DNA of 64,000 nucleotides from the NCBI RefSeq assembly GCF_012932565.1, contig NZ_JABBYJ010000003.1, positions 1-64,000 on the forward strand. Direction: 5' to 3'. The notes beneath the pieces are model-generated. The model saw nothing but the letters and a program-made list of their open reading frames with translations. It did not search any database and was not told where the DNA came from. The stretch comes from Sneathiella limimaris. Lineage in GTDB: Bacteria; Pseudomonadota; Alphaproteobacteria; Sneathiellales; Sneathiellaceae. The position numbers and the translations under genes were made by a program. Each line of letters opens with the position of its first letter. The stretch's first letter is position 1. Positions 9,304-58,200 of this stretch are shown in pieces.

Positions 9304-9335
9304 GATGCAAAGTCAATAATTGACAACCTGCATAT

Positions 9336-9510
9336 TTCTGGTGGGAGAGACCGGTTTGATCCGGCGCCGAAGGAGCAACCGCCCCGGAAACTCTCAGGCA
9401 AATGTACGGCCAGGAATTCAGGACTCTGGAGAGAGAGCTTTATGGGAATAAGCTCCACCGAAGAGGTACCCGGCTCGCCGGTAATCTTTCAGGTCCATGG
9501 ACAGAGGGGG
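9336..9510 (+). ncRNA. Tandem glycine riboswitch
   Basis: Two consecutive aptamers of the gcvT type are visible. The first (about 9338-9413) has GGGAGAGACC, the GCGCCGAAGGAGCAA core and AACTCTCAGGCAAA. The second (about 9423-9510) has CTGGAGAGAG, CACCGAAGAGG, TCTTTCAGG and closes with GGACAGAGGGGG. These are the hallmark conserved segments of the class. It sits about 50 nt upstream of the L-serine dehydratase start. No U-tract terminator follows, which suggests control at translation, or an ON switch of another type. Confidence 0.93.
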
Positions 9511-14293: not shown

Positions 14294-14842
14294 TTAGGCA
14301 ACTTTAGTAATCAACGGATAGGATTTTTTGGTCACCAGGATAATAGCTGTAGCTAGACCCGCTTTAATCAAATCACCCGGGATAAAGACCATGGATCCTT
14401 TTAAGACATCAAGCATTGGAACCTGAGCTGAAATTGACCACCAGGGCACGCCAAAACCGTAGAGCACAATGATGCCACCTATCACTGAAGCAAAAGCCAC
14501 ATGAACCATATTCAAGTTTTGCCAGAACCGTTCGACAATGATTCCAACAACAAATGATGCAGCAATAAACCCAATAACGAAACCACCGCTCGCACCAGCG
14601 AATACGGCTAGTCCGCCACGACCACCGGATAGAAGGGGTAATCCAACCGCAACCAACACGACAAATAACAGCATAGAAAGGCCGCCTCGCTTCGCCCCTA
14701 GGATACCACCAGCCAACATTGGACCCAATGACTGAGCAGTAATGGGAACACCAAATGCAGAAGCGGGAACAGGTGGGACAACACCGAGTGCCGCCATTAG
14801 CGCAGCAAAAAGTGCGATATAAACAATATCTTTGGTTGTCAT
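14294..14842 (-). CDS. bioY: Biotin-binding S component of the ECF transporter
   Basis: A 182-residue membrane protein with about six helices that captures biotin. The AQSLGPMLAGGILGAKRG and GASGGFVIGFIAA segments are characteristic of BioY, and TTKDIVYIALFAALMAALG starts helix 1. First gene of bioYMN. It lies 130 bp downstream of an operon encoding a biotin-dependent carboxylase, a sensible neighbourhood. A BioR-like site is found just upstream. Confidence 0.93.
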   Translation of the reverse strand: MTTKDIVYIALFAALMAALGVVPPVPASAFGVPITAQSLGPMLAGGILGAKRGGLSMLLFVVLVAVGLPLLSGGRGGLAVFAGASGGFVIGFIAASFVVGIIVERFWQNLNMVHVAFASVIGGIIVLYGFGVPWWSISAQVPMLDVLKGSMVFIPGDLIKAGLATAIILVTKKSYPLITKVA

Positions 14843-33054: not shown

Positions 33055-36000
33055 ATGCGCGATCAAAAGTATCAGAGTTTTAGGCGCAAACTGTACAGCC
33101 AAATTTCATTTCTCGCATTAGTAAGCCTGATTGCTTCGAATACAACAGCGAGCGCAGATGTTAATGATGCTGATGCAACAACAGACACTGCTGCGAGCTC
33201 GACTGTTACCGCCTCCGACACCAACGGAATACTGGATGATAACGGGGCCGACCACACAATCACCATAGATTCCAATAGTGGCGCTTTAACTTTTGGCACA
33301 CTGCAAACCATTGATGGTATTACGTTTTTATCTCAGTCAGGCGATATAACTGCGACGATAAACATTACCAGTTCCGGAACTAACAATCTTGTTACCTTTG
33401 CCGGTGATGTTCAGGTAAAAGGGACTGAATCCCTTATTCTGAATGCGACGAATACAGATATTCTACTTCAGGGTGACGCTCCCTTCGGTACGGGTTCTTC
33501 TACTCTCAATCTAGGAGATGGTTCTAGCAGCGTTTCGGCTACATTCGACACCGCGCTAAATGCTGATAACACTATTGAAATGGTCATCAACGCGGCCTCC
33601 GCGGCGGACACAGTCACCCTCTCTGTTACAAATACAGATGGAACTTCGGGTAACGAGATAATTTTCACACAAGCAATCGGTGGAGCAAGTTCGGCCACCG
33701 AAATAGACGTCATTGAAATCGCAAGTGGCGCCAAAGCGACTTTTAACGGGGCTGTCAGGGCTGGAACTATTGAAATTCGAACGTCAGAAGCGATTACCTT
33801 TGACGATAGCATCACCGCTGATATTGATCTTTACAACGATTATACACTTTCTTTGAAAGATGGCTTTCCCCTTAACGGTTCTATTGACAACCAAACAGGT
33901 TCAGACAATGCAGGGACCCTAAACGTTGTCGATCAAACAGGAGGGGCAACGACTATCGTTTCAGGCGATATTGGATCGACAAACTCCTTAAAAGCCGTCA
34001 CTGCTGAAAGCTCATCAAATACAATCACATTTGGTGGCAACATTAATGCCACTACAATCACCTTGACCGGCACTGACGATACAGACGAAACAATTTTTCA
34101 AGGTAATGTAACTGGATCCGTCGTTATCGATACTGCAGGCCTCCTCACCTTCACCGCAAACAAATATGTTGATGGACCGGTGACTTCAAATACCGATGGC
34201 GCCGGTATTTTGGAGTTTGAAACCCAAACAGCGGACACCACTCTCGTTTCTGGTAACGTAGGAACAGGCGGTGGCAATTCGTTGAAAGAACTTATTGTCA
34301 ACACTGGCGCCGGTGTCACATCCACTTTTGGTGGCACCGTGGATGCAAACACAATCACAGTAGCTGGCTCTGGTACTGTCAGAATTCAAGATACGATCAA
34401 TACGACGACCCTATCTTTTTCAAGCGACGCGACAGTAAACATTGCCGCAAACAAAGCTATCTCTGGCGCAGTCGATGCAGGCGGTACTTTTGGTAATCTC
34501 GTGTTTGATGAAAGCACCACAAATACGACATTGGTTAGCGGGTCTGTCGGTGCGACAAATGCCCTAAGCTCTATCGACACAACCATTGCCTCCGGTGTCA
34601 CATCCACATTTGCTGGCACCGTGGCCGCAGATACTATTTCGGTAAATGGATCAGGAACTATTGCGTTTTCTGACGATGTTACAGGCGACATAGAGATTGG
34701 AGATGGAGGTAAAGTTTCCCTATCTGCTGGCAAAAAGATTATAGGTAACATTGATAATTCTAGTGGCTCAGACGGATCCGGAACTGCCAGTTTTGGTGCT
34801 ATTGGCGGCAATTTAACACTCGTGTCTGGCTCAATAGGAGCCTCAAACTCTCTTGGCTCAGTGACAGTAGACACCACCGGGGGTATCGCGACTTTCTCTG
34901 GATCTGTGAATGCAGAAGATTTTACAGCAACTGGGAGCGGTTCTATCCAGTTCGGTAATGGGGGATCACTTGGATCTCTTTCATCTACCGGAAACATAAA
35001 TACGGGCAATACGCTTCTGACAATTTCAGGTGATACATCCTTCACTGGCGGAAGCTCACTCAATGTTGGTTCAGGCGGGCTAGAATTTAATGGAAGTTCT
35101 GCTCAAACGGTATCCGCACCGATAAATAACACCAACAATCTGTCAATCAGCAATACCAGTAGCTCAGGTGTTACATTTGAAAGTGCCTTGGGTGCCACGA
35201 CTCCCTTGGGAATGGTAACACTAAATTCAAACACCAAGACCACTTTCAATAACACTGTTCAGGCAACTTCTCTTTCCAGCAACGGAAATCTGGTAGTCGA
35301 AAACACAATTACCTTGTCTGGTACTGCGACATTTAATGGTGGAACCCTCACGATCGGAGATAGCTTCACTCCGGGTGACACGATTTTCAGTGTCAATGAT
35401 GTCAGTGCGTCAGGCAGTCCAACCGTTCAGATTGCAGGTGATATACAAACCGGTACCTATACGCTGTTTGACAGTGTAACCGACGCATCAGATGAAGTTG
35501 CAAATTTTGCGCCCTCGACCAGTATCCTGAGAAGTACAGAATTACAAGTAAATGGCTCAGATATTGAGCTGGTGGTGACCACACGAACAGCGGATAGCCT
35601 TGCCACGGAGTTCAGTGTTACAAACAATCAGGCTAACATCCTAATAATCGCAAATGATGCAATCGCAACTGGCAACGATGCATTGCTGAGTGATCTTATC
35701 GCTTCCGTTAATGCAGGTGGTTCTACAGCCCAAAATGCCATCAAAAGCCTTGCTGTTCAGAGTGAAAGCATGGACGCAGCAATCAGCGTCGCTTCCGGAC
35801 TTCAAAACCAGGTTTTTCTATTCACTTCTGACAGGCTATCAGCTGTCCGGAATCCAGAAACTGCTTCTCGCCAGGTTATCGCTGACACCTCAACTGATCG
35901 GCCTGATGCGAAGAAATCTGCCTGGATCAAGGCATTCGGCTTTCTGGCTGACCAAGACAGAACATCAGATGGAGAAAGCTATGATGCGGGTACAGCTGGC

Positions 36001-36738
36001 TCGACTTTTGGCTACGACGCCGCCATTACAGATAAGAGCCGCCTAGGAGCCTCATTTACTTATGCTTACACCGATGTTGATGGTGGTGGAGCTGGCAATG
36101 TCAGCACTCAGCTGAACAGCTATCAAGGCAACCTATACGCAGATTACTCAACAAAAGAATTCTTCATAGAAGGCTCAGTGGGTTACGCATTTAACAGTAT
36201 AAAAAGTAGCAGGGTAATAGACTTTCTGGGTTCGGATACAACGGCGCGCGCAGACTACGACTCCAATCAATATATGGCAGCCGTTCAATTCGGCGTTCCC
36301 CTTACCGCAGGCGATTATCAAATAACTCCTATGGCAGGCGTATCTTATACATATTTGACAACCGATGATTATAGAGAAACGGGGGCTGGTGGACTTAATC
36401 AGCAAGTCAAAACGGACAATCTACAGCTGTTGACTACTTCAGTAGGTGCACAGATATCAACCCAGATCAGAGCAGGGTCAGGATATTTCATACCTCATTT
36501 AAGAGGCGGTGTGCGGTATGAGTTGCTTGGTGAAAATGCAACGGCGACTTCGCAATTTACGGGCGGAGGATCTACTTTCACAGTAGAGGGTCAGGATCCT
36601 GAACAGTTTGGCGCTCAGCTTGGCCTTGGGTTTGCCTATGATGTAGGTGAGTGGATTTTGGGTGCAAATTATGACGCAGAATTTAAAAACAACTACTTGT
36701 CGCACTCCGGTAGTCTGAAGGCTAAGTTACGCTTCTAA
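33055..36738 (+). CDS. Autotransporter with repetitive passenger domain
   Basis: A 1227-residue type Va-secreted protein. The N-terminus has an extended signal (RRKLYSQISFLALVSLIAS, cut about residue 33). The passenger (about 35-930) is Thr/Ser/Gly/Asn-rich, Cys-free beta-helix-like sequence with at least four repeats of about 96 residues. The C-terminal autotransporter beta domain (about 960-1227) includes AWIKAFGFLADQD, GSTFGYDAAITDKSRLGASF and ends in AKLRF, the Bam-recognition aromatic end. Function is probably adhesion or surface structure. Its G-rich ribosome binding site is noted separately. It is convergent with the IalB-like gene, 3 bp apart. Confidence 0.88.
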   Translation: MRDQKYQSFRRKLYSQISFLALVSLIASNTTASADVNDADATTDTAASSTVTASDTNGILDDNGADHTITIDSNSGALTFGTLQTIDGITFLSQSGDITATINITSSGTNNLVTFAGDVQVKGTESLILNATNTDILLQGDAPFGTGSSTLNLGDGSSSVSATFDTALNADNTIEMVINAASAADTVTLSVTNTDGTSGNEIIFTQAIGGASSATEIDVIEIASGAKATFNGAVRAGTIEIRTSEAITFDDSITADIDLYNDYTLSLKDGFPLNGSIDNQTGSDNAGTLNVVDQTGGATTIVSGDIGSTNSLKAVTAESSSNTITFGGNINATTITLTGTDDTDETIFQGNVTGSVVIDTAGLLTFTANKYVDGPVTSNTDGAGILEFETQTADTTLVSGNVGTGGGNSLKELIVNTGAGVTSTFGGTVDANTITVAGSGTVRIQDTINTTTLSFSSDATVNIAANKAISGAVDAGGTFGNLVFDESTTNTTLVSGSVGATNALSSIDTTIASGVTSTFAGTVAADTISVNGSGTIAFSDDVTGDIEIGDGGKVSLSAGKKIIGNIDNSSGSDGSGTASFGAIGGNLTLVSGSIGASNSLGSVTVDTTGGIATFSGSVNAEDFTATGSGSIQFGNGGSLGSLSSTGNINTGNTLLTISGDTSFTGGSSLNVGSGGLEFNGSSAQTVSAPINNTNNLSISNTSSSGVTFESALGATTPLGMVTLNSNTKTTFNNTVQATSLSSNGNLVVENTITLSGTATFNGGTLTIGDSFTPGDTIFSVNDVSASGSPTVQIAGDIQTGTYTLFDSVTDASDEVANFAPSTSILRSTELQVNGSDIELVVTTRTADSLATEFSVTNNQANILIIANDAIATGNDALLSDLIASVNAGGSTAQNAIKSLAVQSESMDAAISVASGLQNQVFLFTSDRLSAVRNPETASRQVIADTSTDRPDAKKSAWIKAFGFLADQDRTSDGESYDAGTAGSTFGYDAAITDKSRLGASFTYAYTDVDGGGAGNVSTQLNSYQGNLYADYSTKEFFIEGSVGYAFNSIKSSRVIDFLGSDTTARADYDSNQYMAAVQFGVPLTAGDYQITPMAGVSYTYLTTDDYRETGAGGLNQQVKTDNLQLLTTSVGAQISTQIRAGSGYFIPHLRGGVRYELLGENATATSQFTGGGSTFTVEGQDPEQFGAQLGLGFAYDVGEWILGANYDAEFKNNYLSHSGSLKAKLRF
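33880..34975 (+). repeat. Four degenerate ~288-bp repeats in the autotransporter passenger
   Basis: The motif (T)TxVSGxxGxxNxLxxV...TFxGxxxAxTITVxGSG recurs with starts at about 33949, 34237, 34528 and 34813, that is spacing of 285-291 bp (about 96 codons). Examples are TTIVSGDIGSTNSL, TTLVSGNVGTGGGNSL, TTLVSGSVGATNAL and LTLVSGSIGASNSL. Protein identity between units is moderate, so they are ancient rather than fresh duplications. Confidence 0.75.
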
Positions 36739-36741
36739 AGG

Positions 36742-37269
36742 CTAGTTGAGCCAGCTAAATGATCTTGTGAAACCAATCAAACTGGCCTGAACCACTATTG
36801 TTTGTTTACTACCATAGGGCCGAAATCCAACTTTCATAGCGGTCCCAGCTTTCATTTTTGCGAGCATGTCTGTTGGTAAAAGAGAACGCATCTCGCATCC
36901 AATCTTACTGCAAATGGAATAAGGCGCTTTAACCTCTTGGTTCTCATCGATTTTCATGAGCAAACCAGCTTGTAAATCAACACCTAAGGGGAGTTGCATG
37001 ACGATATAGGGTTTTCGGCTTTCTTTACCTACATAAAAAATTTTTATATTCAGGATCTGCCCAACTTGCCCGGTACCCTCTTCTTTCTGTTGCCGCAGGA
37101 CAAGTTTCTGTTCGATCAAACAACTTTGTGGATCGTCTTTTGCCTGACAAACAAGTTTCCAGGCATCTGCATTCTCTTCAGCTTTAAGAGCACATGGAAC
37201 AAGCAATAGAGTACAGACTAGTGGACGAATGGTATAAAATTGGGAACGTAAGGTAGGAAACCAAGTCAT
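36742..37269 (-). CDS. Invasion-associated locus B (IalB)-family protein
   Basis: A 175-residue secreted protein of the IalB family. After a signal sequence (about residues 1-31, ending ...CALKAEE) come WKLVCQ..PQSCLIEQKLV, LPLGVDLQAGLLMKIDE and YSICSKIGCEMRSLL, with the paired cysteines typical of the family. Periplasmic role unknown despite the name, which comes from Bartonella. The ATG at 37269 is preferred to the upstream TTG at 37290. A perfect 11-bp inverted repeat lies directly upstream. Convergent with the autotransporter. Confidence 0.82.
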   Translation of the reverse strand: MTWFPTLRSQFYTIRPLVCTLLLVPCALKAEENADAWKLVCQAKDDPQSCLIEQKLVLRQQKEEGTGQVGQILNIKIFYVGKESRKPYIVMQLPLGVDLQAGLLMKIDENQEVKAPYSICSKIGCEMRSLLPTDMLAKMKAGTAMKVGFRPYGSKQTIVVQASLIGFTRSFSWLN

Positions 37270-37280
37270 GATGTCTACAA

Positions 37281-37314
37281 TTTCGATCAAATCAATAAGG
37301 TATTTTGATCGAAA
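37281..37314. promoter_or_regulatory. 11-bp inverted repeat upstream of the IalB gene
   Basis: TTTCGATCAAA (37281-37291) and TTTGATCGAAA (37304-37314) are perfect reverse complements separated by 12 bp, just before the ATG at 37269. It could be an operator or a leader hairpin that controls translation. Confidence 0.5.
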
Positions 37315-37349: not shown

Positions 37350-37781
37350 TCAAGCACCAGCGGCTTTTACCAAAAACAGACGAACTCCCGAGATTTTCCA
37401 TTCCCCACTCACATTCTCAAACTGATAGATCGCTTTCCAGATCTTACCTTCCGGCCCTTGAATAAGGACAGCTTGCAATGGACGCCCTCTTATCTCTTGG
37501 AATTCATCAAATTGATACCAGGCAGGGTTAAATACTGGAGAATAATACTCGCGAACCATGTCGACAAACTTGTCAGAGGTCTCGTACTGCAACCGAATAA
37601 CAGGCGCTGCAAAACTGTAGGCTCGCTCATTTCTCCCCGATTGAAATGCCTCTATCTGACTGTCAATAATCTGCTCAAAAACCGAGAGAGACTTTTCTTT
37701 GGCAAATGTATACCCAGCACACAGGATAGTGCTAGCCATTGCTAAAGCTATGAGTAGGTAGCGATTGGAGATATGACTCAT
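37350..37781 (-). CDS. DUF4864-domain secreted protein
   Basis: A 143-residue protein with a signal peptide (ISNRYLLIALAMASTILCAG, cut near residue 27) and a DUF4864 body: IIDSQIEAFQSGRNERAYSFAAP near residues 37-60 and YQFENVSGEWKISGVRL at the end. The fold is NTF2-like by appearance. Function unknown. No partner is clear; it lies between the IalB gene and the sigma-E promoter region. Confidence 0.75.
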   Translation of the reverse strand: MSHISNRYLLIALAMASTILCAGYTFAKEKSLSVFEQIIDSQIEAFQSGRNERAYSFAAPVIRLQYETSDKFVDMVREYYSPVFNPAWYQFDEFQEIRGRPLQAVLIQGPEGKIWKAIYQFENVSGEWKISGVRLFLVKAAGA

Positions 37782-37847
37782 GACTGGACACCCTTCCCAA
37801 AATTACACCCATGCTGACCAAATAGAAGTACTTGACTGGAGCCATTT

Positions 37848-37954
37848 TTAAAAAAAGACGTGCCTGCCGCAAATCAATGAGGGGGGGGTTCGCGGCAGGC
37901 ACGTAGGCTATCCACTCAGCGGTAGTAGATAGCCCCAGCAGTTAAACTTTTTAT
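37848..37954 (-). ncRNA. Candidate sigma-E-dependent small RNA with C8 anti-Shine-Dalgarno loop
   Basis: A leftward transcript of about 105 nt is predicted from a TGATCC-N18-TAAATC promoter (37990-37961) and a strong terminator. After an AU-rich 5' end there are two hairpins: GGCTATC...GATAGCC (about 37935-37911) and a perfect 13-bp GC-rich stem (37904-37892 with 37870-37858) followed by CTTTTTTT. The 21-nt loop of the second contains CCCCCCCCUCA, exposed for pairing with Shine-Dalgarno sequences. No credible reading frame lies inside. It has the build of an Hfq-type regulatory RNA; no family is recognised. Inference from sequence only. Confidence 0.55.
37849..37904 (-). terminator. Intrinsic terminator with 13-bp GC-rich stem and C8 loop
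   Basis: ACGTGCCTGCCGC and GCGGCAGGCACGT are perfect complements around a 21-nt loop; on the minus strand the stem is followed by CTTTTTTT. It is the 3' end of the predicted small RNA. Confidence 0.8.
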
Positions 37955-37960
37955 TTATCT

Positions 37961-37990
37961 GATTTACGCCTGCCGACTCTTTTTGGATCA
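37961..37990 (-). promoter_or_regulatory. Sigma-E (RpoE/ChrR) promoter, leftward
   Basis: On the minus strand TGATCC (37990-37985) is followed by exactly 18 nt and TAAATC (37966-37961). TGATCC at -35 with an 18-nt spacer is the known form of RpoE promoters in Rhodobacter-type RpoE-ChrR systems. It faces the small-RNA candidate. Confidence 0.6.
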
Positions 37991-38004
37991 CAGGGCCCTT
38001 GAAT

Positions 38005-38034
38005 TGATCCAAAAAAAGTTTTTTCTCGTAGATC
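38005..38034 (+). promoter_or_regulatory. Sigma-E (RpoE/ChrR) promoter of the DUF6134 operon
   Basis: TGATCC (38005-38010), 18 nt, then TAGATC (38029-38034). The predicted start at about 38041 gives a 24-nt leader before the ATG at 38065. It is back to back with the leftward copy, so the two -35 boxes form the 11-bp inverted repeat TTTTTGGATCA/TGATCCAAAAA. Confidence 0.65.
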
Positions 38035-38064
38035 ATAACAGTCAAAGCAACGAGCGGTGTAGAG

Positions 38065-45186: not shown

Positions 45187-45216
45187 CTTTTACGGTAAAA
45201 CCAAATCGTTGGATCA
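45187..45216 (-). promoter_or_regulatory. Sigma-E (RpoE/ChrR) promoter of the leftward lipid operon
   Basis: On the minus strand TGATCC (45216-45211), 18 nt, then TAAAAG (45192-45187). A start near 45180 leaves a leader of about 23 nt before the ATG at 45157. Spacing and leader length are the same as for the DUF6134 operon. Confidence 0.68.
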
Positions 45217-45283: not shown

Positions 45284-45316
45284 GCAGAGGGTTTTATTTT
45301 GAGATTGGGTCAGCTA

Positions 45317-45907
45317 ATGGCATCATCCGACAGTCAAGGCGACTGCTCTCCTTCCACGCAATCAGATGCTTTTGATCTGAATGTGGATCTGGTTCGGGTG
45401 GCTGAGCATGCTGACCGCGCAGCTTATCGCAGAATTTTTTTACACATGGCTCCGAAGGTGAAAACCTTTCTCTTAAAAAGCGGGTTGTCTCCTGCGGAGT
45501 GTGAAGAAGTTTTACAAGACACCATGATGAAGGTTTGGAGAAAAGCTGCCTTATTCGATCGCTCTAAATCGGCCGCTTCGACTTGGATATATTCGATTGC
45601 TCGAAATGCCAGGATAGATCGGATACGAAAAGAATACAGACCACTTCCCGATCCGGAAGATCCTTCCTTTGTTCCAGATCCACCTGAAACAGGTGAAGAA
45701 GCTGTATCTCGGGAGCAAAATCGAGAAATGATTCAAGAGGCCCTCAGCTCATTACCATCAGAACAAATTGAGATCATCACCATGTCTTTTTTCGAAGAGA
45801 AATCACATGCTGAGATTTCAGAGGCACTGAACTTACCATTGGGAACCGTGAAGTCACGGATCAGGCTGGCATTCGGGAAAATCCGTGCCAGGTTGGAGGC
45901 TATGTAA
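45317..45907 (+). CDS. rpoE: ECF sigma factor RpoE (ChrR-controlled, ECF11-type)
   Basis: An ECF sigma factor of about 196 residues. Region 2 (LQDTMMKVWRKAALFD...ASTWIYSIARNARIDRIRK) and region 4 (LSSLPSEQIEIITMSFFEEKSH, EALNLPLGTVKSRIRLAF) are complete. Together with the ChrR-type gene that starts inside its stop region (TAATG), it is the singlet-oxygen/photooxidative-stress sigma of the Rhodobacter type. The ATG at 45317 fits a promoter at 45278; a TTG at 45299 with AGAGGG upstream is the alternative. It controls the neighbouring lipid operons by the promoters noted. Confidence 0.93.
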   Translation: MASSDSQGDCSPSTQSDAFDLNVDLVRVAEHADRAAYRRIFLHMAPKVKTFLLKSGLSPAECEEVLQDTMMKVWRKAALFDRSKSAASTWIYSIARNARIDRIRKEYRPLPDPEDPSFVPDPPETGEEAVSREQNREMIQEALSSLPSEQIEIITMSFFEEKSHAEISEALNLPLGTVKSRIRLAFGKIRARLEAM

Positions 45908-46599
45908 TGAGTAACATGCAAAATTCGATCAATCATCATATTAACGATGATACATTGTTGGGTTATGCGAACGCTACTTTGGCAGGGACTCTGTCACTTG
46001 TTGTCGCTACTCATCTATCAGTCTGCCCAAAATGCCGGAAACAGCTGGATTTGGTTTTATCCGTTGGCTCAACCTTCTTAGATCAAGCTGACAATAATGA
46101 CCTTTCATCGAAAGAAATGTCGTTTTTGGATGAGATTGTTGCAACTCCTCAGGACGCTCCTCAGGCTCATGAGGAAGATATAACAGCTGAAAAGCTCACG
46201 AAGGCTATAACAGTACCTGGTCCGCTGAACAATTTTATACCCTGCGAGCTTGATGAGATCCCATGGAAACGTTTGGTTCCTGGCGTATCTCACTACCCCC
46301 TGCAGGGTATAAAGAATGGTGATGGTAAAGGAGCCTTGCGCTTACTCAAAATCGATCCCGGAACCACACTGCCAGAACATACCCACAGTGGTCAGGAGCT
46401 TACCCTTATTCTAAAAGGTTCCTATATCGATGAAGTCGGACGTTTTGCCGAAGGGGACATAGCAGACCTTGATGATAGCATCCATCATCAGCCGGTAGCT
46501 GATACAAGTGTGGAATGCATTTGCTTAATCGCAACAGATGCCCCGCTCAAGTTCAAGGGCTTCTTTAGTCGGTTGCTGCAGCCAATTATCGGGATTTAG
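45907..46599 (+). CDS. chrR: Anti-sigma factor ChrR with cupin domain
   Basis: A 230-residue zinc anti-sigma factor. The N-terminal domain has His in NHHINDD and the HLSVCPKC (HxxxCxxC) zinc motif, which binds RpoE; the C-terminal half is a cupin (EHTHSGQELTLILKGSY... with the later HHQPVAD His), which in Rhodobacter is needed to respond to singlet oxygen. Translationally coupled to rpoE. Its end overlaps the convergent hutG gene by 14 bp. Confidence 0.93.
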   Translation: MSNMQNSINHHINDDTLLGYANATLAGTLSLVVATHLSVCPKCRKQLDLVLSVGSTFLDQADNNDLSSKEMSFLDEIVATPQDAPQAHEEDITAEKLTKAITVPGPLNNFIPCELDEIPWKRLVPGVSHYPLQGIKNGDGKGALRLLKIDPGTTLPEHTHSGQELTLILKGSYIDEVGRFAEGDIADLDDSIHHQPVADTSVECICLIATDAPLKFKGFFSRLLQPIIGI

Positions 46600-48930: not shown

Positions 48931-49494
48931 TTATGAAGAGGGCAGTAACACAGTATCAATAACGTGAATAACACCGTTGGACTGCTTTACGTCCTCGATG
49001 GTGACATTTGCAATATTACCTTGGCCATCCTTGATCATAATTTTATCTTTGTCGTACATTGCGGTAAATTGGCAGCCACCAACAGTCTTCACAGCAAGAG
49101 TTCCACCATCATTATCAACCATCTGCTTGATTGGATCAGACAAGGCCTTTGCAGCCAGTACGTGACAGGTCAGGATTTTTGTAAGTGTTTCTTTATTTTC
49201 TGGCTTCAGCAGATTTTCAACAGTACCTTCTGGAAGCTTGGCAAAAGCAGCATTTGTTGGGGCAAACACTGTGTATGGCCCATCTCCCTGCAAAGTGTCC
49301 ACCAAACCAGCTGCTTTCACGGCAGCAACTAACGTCGTGTGATCGTCGGAGTTCATCGCATTTTCGACAATCGTTTTACTCTCATACATGGGGGCACCGC
49401 CAACTTCCGGATTGTCTGCTACAGCAGTACAAGCGCCGAGTGCAAGCATAGAGACGGCAGCTACAGGAAGAACAGCTTGTTTTAAGAGTTTCAT
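48931..49494 (-). CDS. Fasciclin-domain lipoprotein
   Basis: A 187-residue protein with lipoprotein signal (LPVAAVSMLALGAC, Cys about 21) and one fasciclin (FAS1) domain: TTLVAAVKAAGLVDTLQGDG, PYTVFAPTNAAFAKLPEG and the C-terminal NGVIHVIDTVLLP. Probably an envelope adhesion or stress protein; homologues are sometimes in sigma-E regulons, but I see no such promoter here. I start at the ATG at 49494, with GAGGAG upstream; the ORF continues to 49572 without a good site. Confidence 0.9.
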   Translation of the reverse strand: MKLLKQAVLPVAAVSMLALGACTAVADNPEVGGAPMYESKTIVENAMNSDDHTTLVAAVKAAGLVDTLQGDGPYTVFAPTNAAFAKLPEGTVENLLKPENKETLTKILTCHVLAAKALSDPIKQMVDNDGGTLAVKTVGGCQFTAMYDKDKIMIKDGQGNIANVTIEDVKQSNGVIHVIDTVLLPSS

Positions 49495-49670
49495 TTTAAT
49501 CTCCTCGTTAGACCCCACCCTTCGTGGATGGTTGCAAGGAGATACGGAGATCCCATAAATTAGGATTACCAAAACTATGTGACAGACATCACAAAGTTGT
49601 AAACTACCAAGATTAAAAATTATCTAAACGGTGACAGGAACCTTCAAAGGCTCCTGCCAACCTTCAATTA

Positions 49671-58137: not shown

Positions 58138-58141
58138 GTTG

Positions 58142-58200
58142 TACTAAACCTTCCAGTCTAGAGCATCCCGGTGGGGGGATGTGGCCCACCGCCCTTATTG
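58142..58200 (-). ncRNA. serC RNA motif (candidate 5' leader element)
   Basis: On the minus strand, directly before the serC ATG, GGGCGGTGGGCCACATCCCC can pair through GCGGTGGG with CCCACCGG, while CATCCC...GGGATG offers an exclusive alternative stem; GATGCTCTAGACTGG follows. A 'serC motif' is known to me as an alphaproteobacterial leader element in front of serC-serA operons. The detailed consensus match is unchecked. Confidence 0.5.

Follow-up and report, generated by a model that had tools for sequence, protein, structure and literature searches.

A probable sigma-E-controlled leader RNA ahead of the DUF4864 and ialB genes of Sneathiella limimaris

The rpoE-chrR island and its promoters

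The window analysed here is a stretch of 64,000 nucleotides from Sneathiella limimaris (contig NZ_JABBYJ010000003.1, positions 1 to 64,000). It harbors the sigma-E/anti-sigma pair rpoE and chrR (45299-46599, plus strand; chrR scores above the cut-off of TIGR02451), which defines the island described below. Within this island the exact motif TGATCC-N16-CGTA is found three times. One copy (37965-37990, minus strand) precedes a predicted RNA of ~110 nt (37850-37959, minus strand), a second (38005-38030, plus strand) stands back to back with the first and precedes a DUF6134-SDR-SnoaL operon, and the third (45191-45216, minus strand) lies before a FAD-DUF1365-CFA-MFS-DUF3833 operon. The RNA is followed on its own strand by a gene assigned to the DUF4864 family (37350-37781) and a gene of the IalB family (36742-37290, listed from TTG 37290, with an ATG at 37269).

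The exact motif occurs only six times in the whole 3.66-Mb genome, including the three copies in the island, and the reversed control pattern does not occur at all. The promoter of the RNA, TGATCC-AAAAAGAGTCGGCAGG-CGTA (37990-37965, minus strand), can also be read as TGATCC-N15-GCGTA and is then identical to the RpoE promoter published for the RpoE-dependent small RNA Pos19 from Rhodobacter sphaeroides (PMC5036791). The motif counts and this identity mark it as an ECF11-type sigma-E promoter, of the form TGATCC-N15/16-(G)CGTA known from RpoE-ChrR regulons, and the same motif is present at the corresponding island promoters across relatives. A sequence-only reading of the region had described a leftward TGATCC-N18-TAAATC element, which is indeed present (37990-37961, minus strand); the window has two copies of TGATCC-N18-TARATC, where 0.03 would be expected. 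However, since the -10 element is CGTA, the RNA start is expected nearer 37959 than the 37954 proposed in that reading, giving an RNA of ~110 nt instead of ~105 nt. Its placement inside the sigma-E island was confirmed, and its claim of sigma-E control can be upheld as a strong inference: both sequence and comparison speak strongly for transcription of the RNA under this sigma factor. The -35 elements of both back-to-back promoters lie within an inverted repeat (37980-38015; 11-bp arms).

A two-hairpin RNA ahead of DUF4864 and ialB

The 5' end of the predicted RNA follows from the -10 element and its 3' end from an intrinsic terminator. After an AU-rich start, noted already in the sequence-only reading, fold prediction yields two hairpins. 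Hairpin 1 (37905-37935, minus strand) has 12 pairs and a 7-nt loop, ACCGCUG, and is thus bigger than the small hairpin described before. Hairpin 2 (37858-37904, minus strand) is the terminator stem; it contains the 13 Watson-Crick pairs of the perfect stem reported earlier, which A-U and G-U pairs lengthen to 16 (-28.6 kcal/mol), and it is followed by a U-tract (U7; CUUUUUUU, 37850-37857, minus strand). Its exposed 15-nt loop CCCCCCCCUCAUUGA (37874-37888, minus strand; predicted unpaired probability mostly near 1) holds C8UCA, as had been seen. Runs of at least eight C or G are found only twice in the 458 kb of the genome searched. The predicted fold of 37954-37849 reaches -48.0 kcal/mol. Dinucleotide shuffles averaged -25.1 +/- 2.9 kcal/mol (z -7.9), and none of 200 folded as stably. 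Within 37959-37849 no ATG reading frame is present and only short GTG frames occur, which agrees with the absence of a reading frame claimed before.

Fold prediction revealed no alternative fold or antiterminator within the RNA that would break the terminator, because its disruption costs 27-29 kcal/mol. Given this strong terminator and the lack of a replacing fold, most transcripts should end near 37850. A terminated transcript of ~110 nt would be the natural product of such a promoter and terminator, slightly longer than the RNA proposed earlier. Very probably, as judged from the DNA, a stress-activated promoter here makes a short, tightly folded RNA that heads a small operon for envelope proteins.

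The first gene of this operon, DUF4864, starts with ATG at 37781, 67 nt past the U-tract, and the IalB-family gene is second in the probable operon, an order conserved in one congener (G009). Upstream of DUF4864, the motif TGATCY-N15-17-CGTA was found in 8 of 67 other loci (4/31 and 4/36), whereas shuffles preserving base composition only gave means of 0.03 and 0.04 (~0.07 expected), and on the reverse strand upstream of these loci it was never found. Since sigma-E-type promoters are present at 8 of the 67 other alphaproteobacterial loci, DUF4864 looks like a member of an extended sigma-E regulon. For the same reason, DUF4864 is most likely the gene served by the promoter at 37990, with the RNA as its leader. 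The RNA is therefore probably the 5' leader of a sigma-E operon DUF4864-ialB. It is probably not the free-standing small RNA gene put forward in the sequence-only reading, in view of the sigma-E-type promoters before DUF4864 in other families and of a two-hairpin leader kept in G009.

At most other DUF4864 loci with a sigma-E-type promoter the leaders are ~20-60 nt long and carry no hairpins like those of the window, and one (L132) is ~99 nt long with other hairpins. That sigma-E recurrently targets DUF4864 across Alphaproteobacteria is a proposition, drawn from the window and loci L063-L139, that lends itself to direct testing. If the RNA is transcribed as predicted, DUF4864 and IalB, two poorly studied envelope-type proteins, would be tied to the singlet-oxygen response. 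In three loci from other families (L073, L091, L041), the neighbour of DUF4864 or DUF6134 encodes a second ChrR-like protein, which has diverged.

Relatives of the leader and turnover at the divergent promoter

G009 is the one syntenic congener; at its locus L053 the rpoE-chrR pair, DUF4864-IalB and the autotransporter gene are arranged as in the window. Its leader promoter is TGATCT-N16-CGTA at 14320. Hairpin 1 equals that of the window in the length of its arms (12 positions) and loop (7 nt) but has a different sequence, and hairpin 2 shares GUGCCUGC ... UUGYGGCAGG with the window, its loop holding UCCCCCC (C6). Searched with a covariance model built from the window RNA alone, 423 kb of G009 gave a single match, at this leader, with 15.7 bits (E 0.73); on the leader region by itself the E-value was 2.8e-4, both E-values being rough. 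The sequence-only score between the two leaders was reached by 8 of 2000 shuffles. As two sequences are compared, no proven covariation is claimed for the hairpins.

The leader of G009 differs from that of the window behind hairpin 2. Here the U-tract is absent and UUGGGGGGAGGGG, complementary to the loop, stands in its place just before the ribosome site. Because the U-tract is missing, a terminator is not evident in the G009 element, and a short RNA is not predicted there. Its loop UCCCCCCAA is complementary to UUGGGGGGA, a G-run just before the DUF4864 ribosome site, and both are paired in the predicted fold of the full leader; among 406 called genes, this ribosome site ranks second for the loop. 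The anatomy of the G009 leader points to action in cis. A purely cis-acting leader, in which the hairpins tune DUF4864-IalB alone, either through partial termination or through a loop that pairs with G-runs at the ribosome site of this gene, would also explain why the RNA is found only together with DUF4864. On the other hand, the window loop pairs weakly with the site of its own gene (-12.0 kcal/mol, compared with -22.3 kcal/mol in G009) and the window RNA holds no antiterminator, so that we regard such a leader as rather unlikely.

Including the window genome, six genomes carry a divergent sigma-E promoter at the SDR/DUF6134 operon, either back to back with it or pointing away from it, and in the remaining congeners with the island no divergent sigma-E promoter was found at that place. 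What this promoter drives varies: a leader with DUF4864 in the window and G009, a terminated RNA in G011 and a fasciclin gene in G008, G012 and G015. One divergent sigma-E promoter with a cargo that varies within a genus is a tractable case of regulon turnover. The RNA of G011 (L055:3574-3701, minus strand) is terminated and non-coding, ~128 nt long, has a perfect sigma-E promoter and lies before a cation antiporter-like gene. It scores 15.1 bits with the model of the window RNA, and the loop of its 5' hairpin, UUUCCUUCCCUCUUU, is rich in C and U; we take it to be a different, analogous RNA in the same place. If the window RNA were a free-standing small RNA gene, with DUF4864 using a separate promoter in the 67-nt gap, both its strong terminator and this G011 RNA ahead of an unrelated gene would fit. 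Nevertheless, a consensus scan limited to sigma-70-type promoters finds none in the gap, sigma-E promoters are present at DUF4864 elsewhere, and no clear terminator lies between promoter and gene in G009, which makes this arrangement unlikely.

In the three congeners with a fasciclin-domain gene (L043, L048, L056), the divergent sigma-E promoter drives that gene. The fasciclin gene of the window is located elsewhere (48931-49572), past chrR and hut-like genes, and its upstream region showed no sigma-E promoter. The terminator at the 3' end of the G012 fasciclin gene (L048:10743-10814) reaches 22.3 bits with the window-RNA model and its loop AUCCCCUCG contains CCCCUC. It was not counted as a homologue, because the fasciclin genes of G008 and G015 are without such a terminator.

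Wide conservation of the RNA was rejected, as 60 other genomes gave no DNA match and 24 congeners no model match at E <= 1. Among the 12 same-genus genomes found to have the island, a recognisable homologue is present only in G009 (15.7 bits) and an analogue in G011, so that the stem is conserved in only part of the island-bearing relatives, which by the sequence-only reading's own standard counts partly against it. A model search with stricter filters in a class sample of 190 genomes gave no match; since the weak homologue of G009 also falls below these limits, distant members could be missed. The RNA occurs at one place in the genome, which speaks against a repeated element, and no Rfam 15 family matches the RNA at gathering score; a search of 37760-38060 gave none with an E-value of 5 or below either. 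Elsewhere in the window, a glycine riboswitch (9332-9419, plus strand) and a serC leader (58140-58191, minus strand) lie above the Rfam gathering score. Taken together, the RNA is probably a new sigma-E leader RNA confined to a narrow lineage.

Known regulatory RNAs and possible roles of the C-rich loop

A precedent for a terminated leader RNA with read-through is UpsM from R. sphaeroides, a 5'-UTR-derived small RNA of 206 nt ahead of mraZ and the dcw genes, for which ~1% read-through has been reported and an alternative fold proposed (PMC5089854). As in UpsM, which is likewise alphaproteobacterial, an intrinsic terminator lies inside the leader, downstream of the promoter and ahead of the co-oriented gene that follows, and read-through into that gene would be expected. 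Unlike UpsM, the window RNA has a sigma-E-type promoter, leads into DUF4864 and shows no alternative fold. Pos19 (RSs0019) from R. sphaeroides, a 219-nt RNA located between cxp and fadB and coding for a small protein (PMC5036791), shares the promoter TGATCC-N15-GCGTA and an intrinsic terminator with the window RNA. The latter differs in its length of ~110 nt, in leading into DUF4864 and in having no ATG frame, and thus no small reading frame of 45-50 codons.

GsrN from Caulobacter crescentus, ~106 nt long, depends on the EcfG-type sigma-T, its homologues often lie near a sigma-factor locus, and its active C-rich loop belongs to a 5' hairpin and not to the terminator (PMC5869019). By analogy, it serves as a precedent for an RNA under a stress sigma factor with an exposed C-rich loop, and its length is similar. 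In contrast to GsrN, the C8 run of the window RNA lies in the terminator loop instead of a 5' hairpin, and the promoter is TGATCC-N16-CGTA and not one of the EcfG (sigma-T) type. The CcsR or cuckoo RNAs are stress-linked alphaproteobacterial RNAs with C-rich loops that resemble anti-Shine-Dalgarno sequences and carry the motif CCUCCUCCC. This motif is absent from the window RNA, which also has no DUF1127 neighbour and a promoter of a different class. That the window RNA is a new regulatory RNA is plausible, and its transcription, if it takes place in the predicted way, would add a leader RNA under sigma-E control from outside the Rhodobacter models.

Our favoured, albeit tentative, reading is a small RNA encoded in a leader that doubles as the 5' UTR of a sigma-E operon. 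On release of sigma-E from ChrR, brought about by singlet oxygen or a related stress, RNA polymerase would start near 37959 and copy the two-hairpin leader. The 16-bp hairpin and U7 would terminate most transcripts at ~110 nt, and the short RNA could pair in trans through its exposed C8UCA loop with G-rich Shine-Dalgarno regions, while a minority of read-through transcripts would express DUF4864 and IalB. This course of events builds on the promoter, the terminator, the position ahead of a gene with sigma-E promoters elsewhere and the related leader in one relative, all seen in the DNA; the transcript, its termination efficiency, the read-through and any action in trans are what we infer from them. 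Against it count the missing U-tract in G009, the little conservation elsewhere in the genus and a loop that could match very many ribosome sites.

An action of the C-rich loop in trans on Shine-Dalgarno sites may occur and is only plausible. The anti-Shine-Dalgarno loop of the sequence-only reading is predicted to be unpaired, yet it fits many G-rich ribosome sites, and no convincing target emerged when all 405 called genes in ~0.4 Mb of the genome were ranked. The top-ranked sites (amidase, glyoxalase-like protein, coproporphyrinogen oxidase and cytochrome b) are not claimed on ranking alone. Furthermore, the idea that C-rich loops generally mark sigma-E transcripts found no support: such loops occur in 1 of 10 strong hairpins near sigma-E promoters, compared with 28 of 833 overall. 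This lack of enrichment, together with loop and hairpin-1 sequences that differ between the window and G009, would suit a 5' UTR without any regulatory role, that is, stabilising hairpins, a leaky terminator and an incidental C-run. We consider this improbable, as both leaders have two hairpins of similar size with a C-run in the second loop and C8 is rare in the window genome.

Immediately before 33055 stands the ribosome site of the gene for an autotransporter of 1227 aa (33055-36738); this site, AGUGAGGGG, is rich in G and complementary to the loop. Here the window loop forms 9 contiguous pairs (rank 23 of 405 called genes), and the G009 loop forms 12 interrupted pairs with the G-rich ribosome site of its own autotransporter gene (rank 9 of 406 called genes, likewise in ~0.4 Mb). 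Since the autotransporter was picked after the fact, it is only suggestive as a target of the loop. A dual-function RNA, whose loop would repress envelope proteins including the adjoining autotransporter in trans and which would tune DUF4864-ialB in cis, appears very unlikely; if it were true, ECF11 sigma-E would have independently gained a branch from small RNA to envelope like that of enterobacterial sigma-E.
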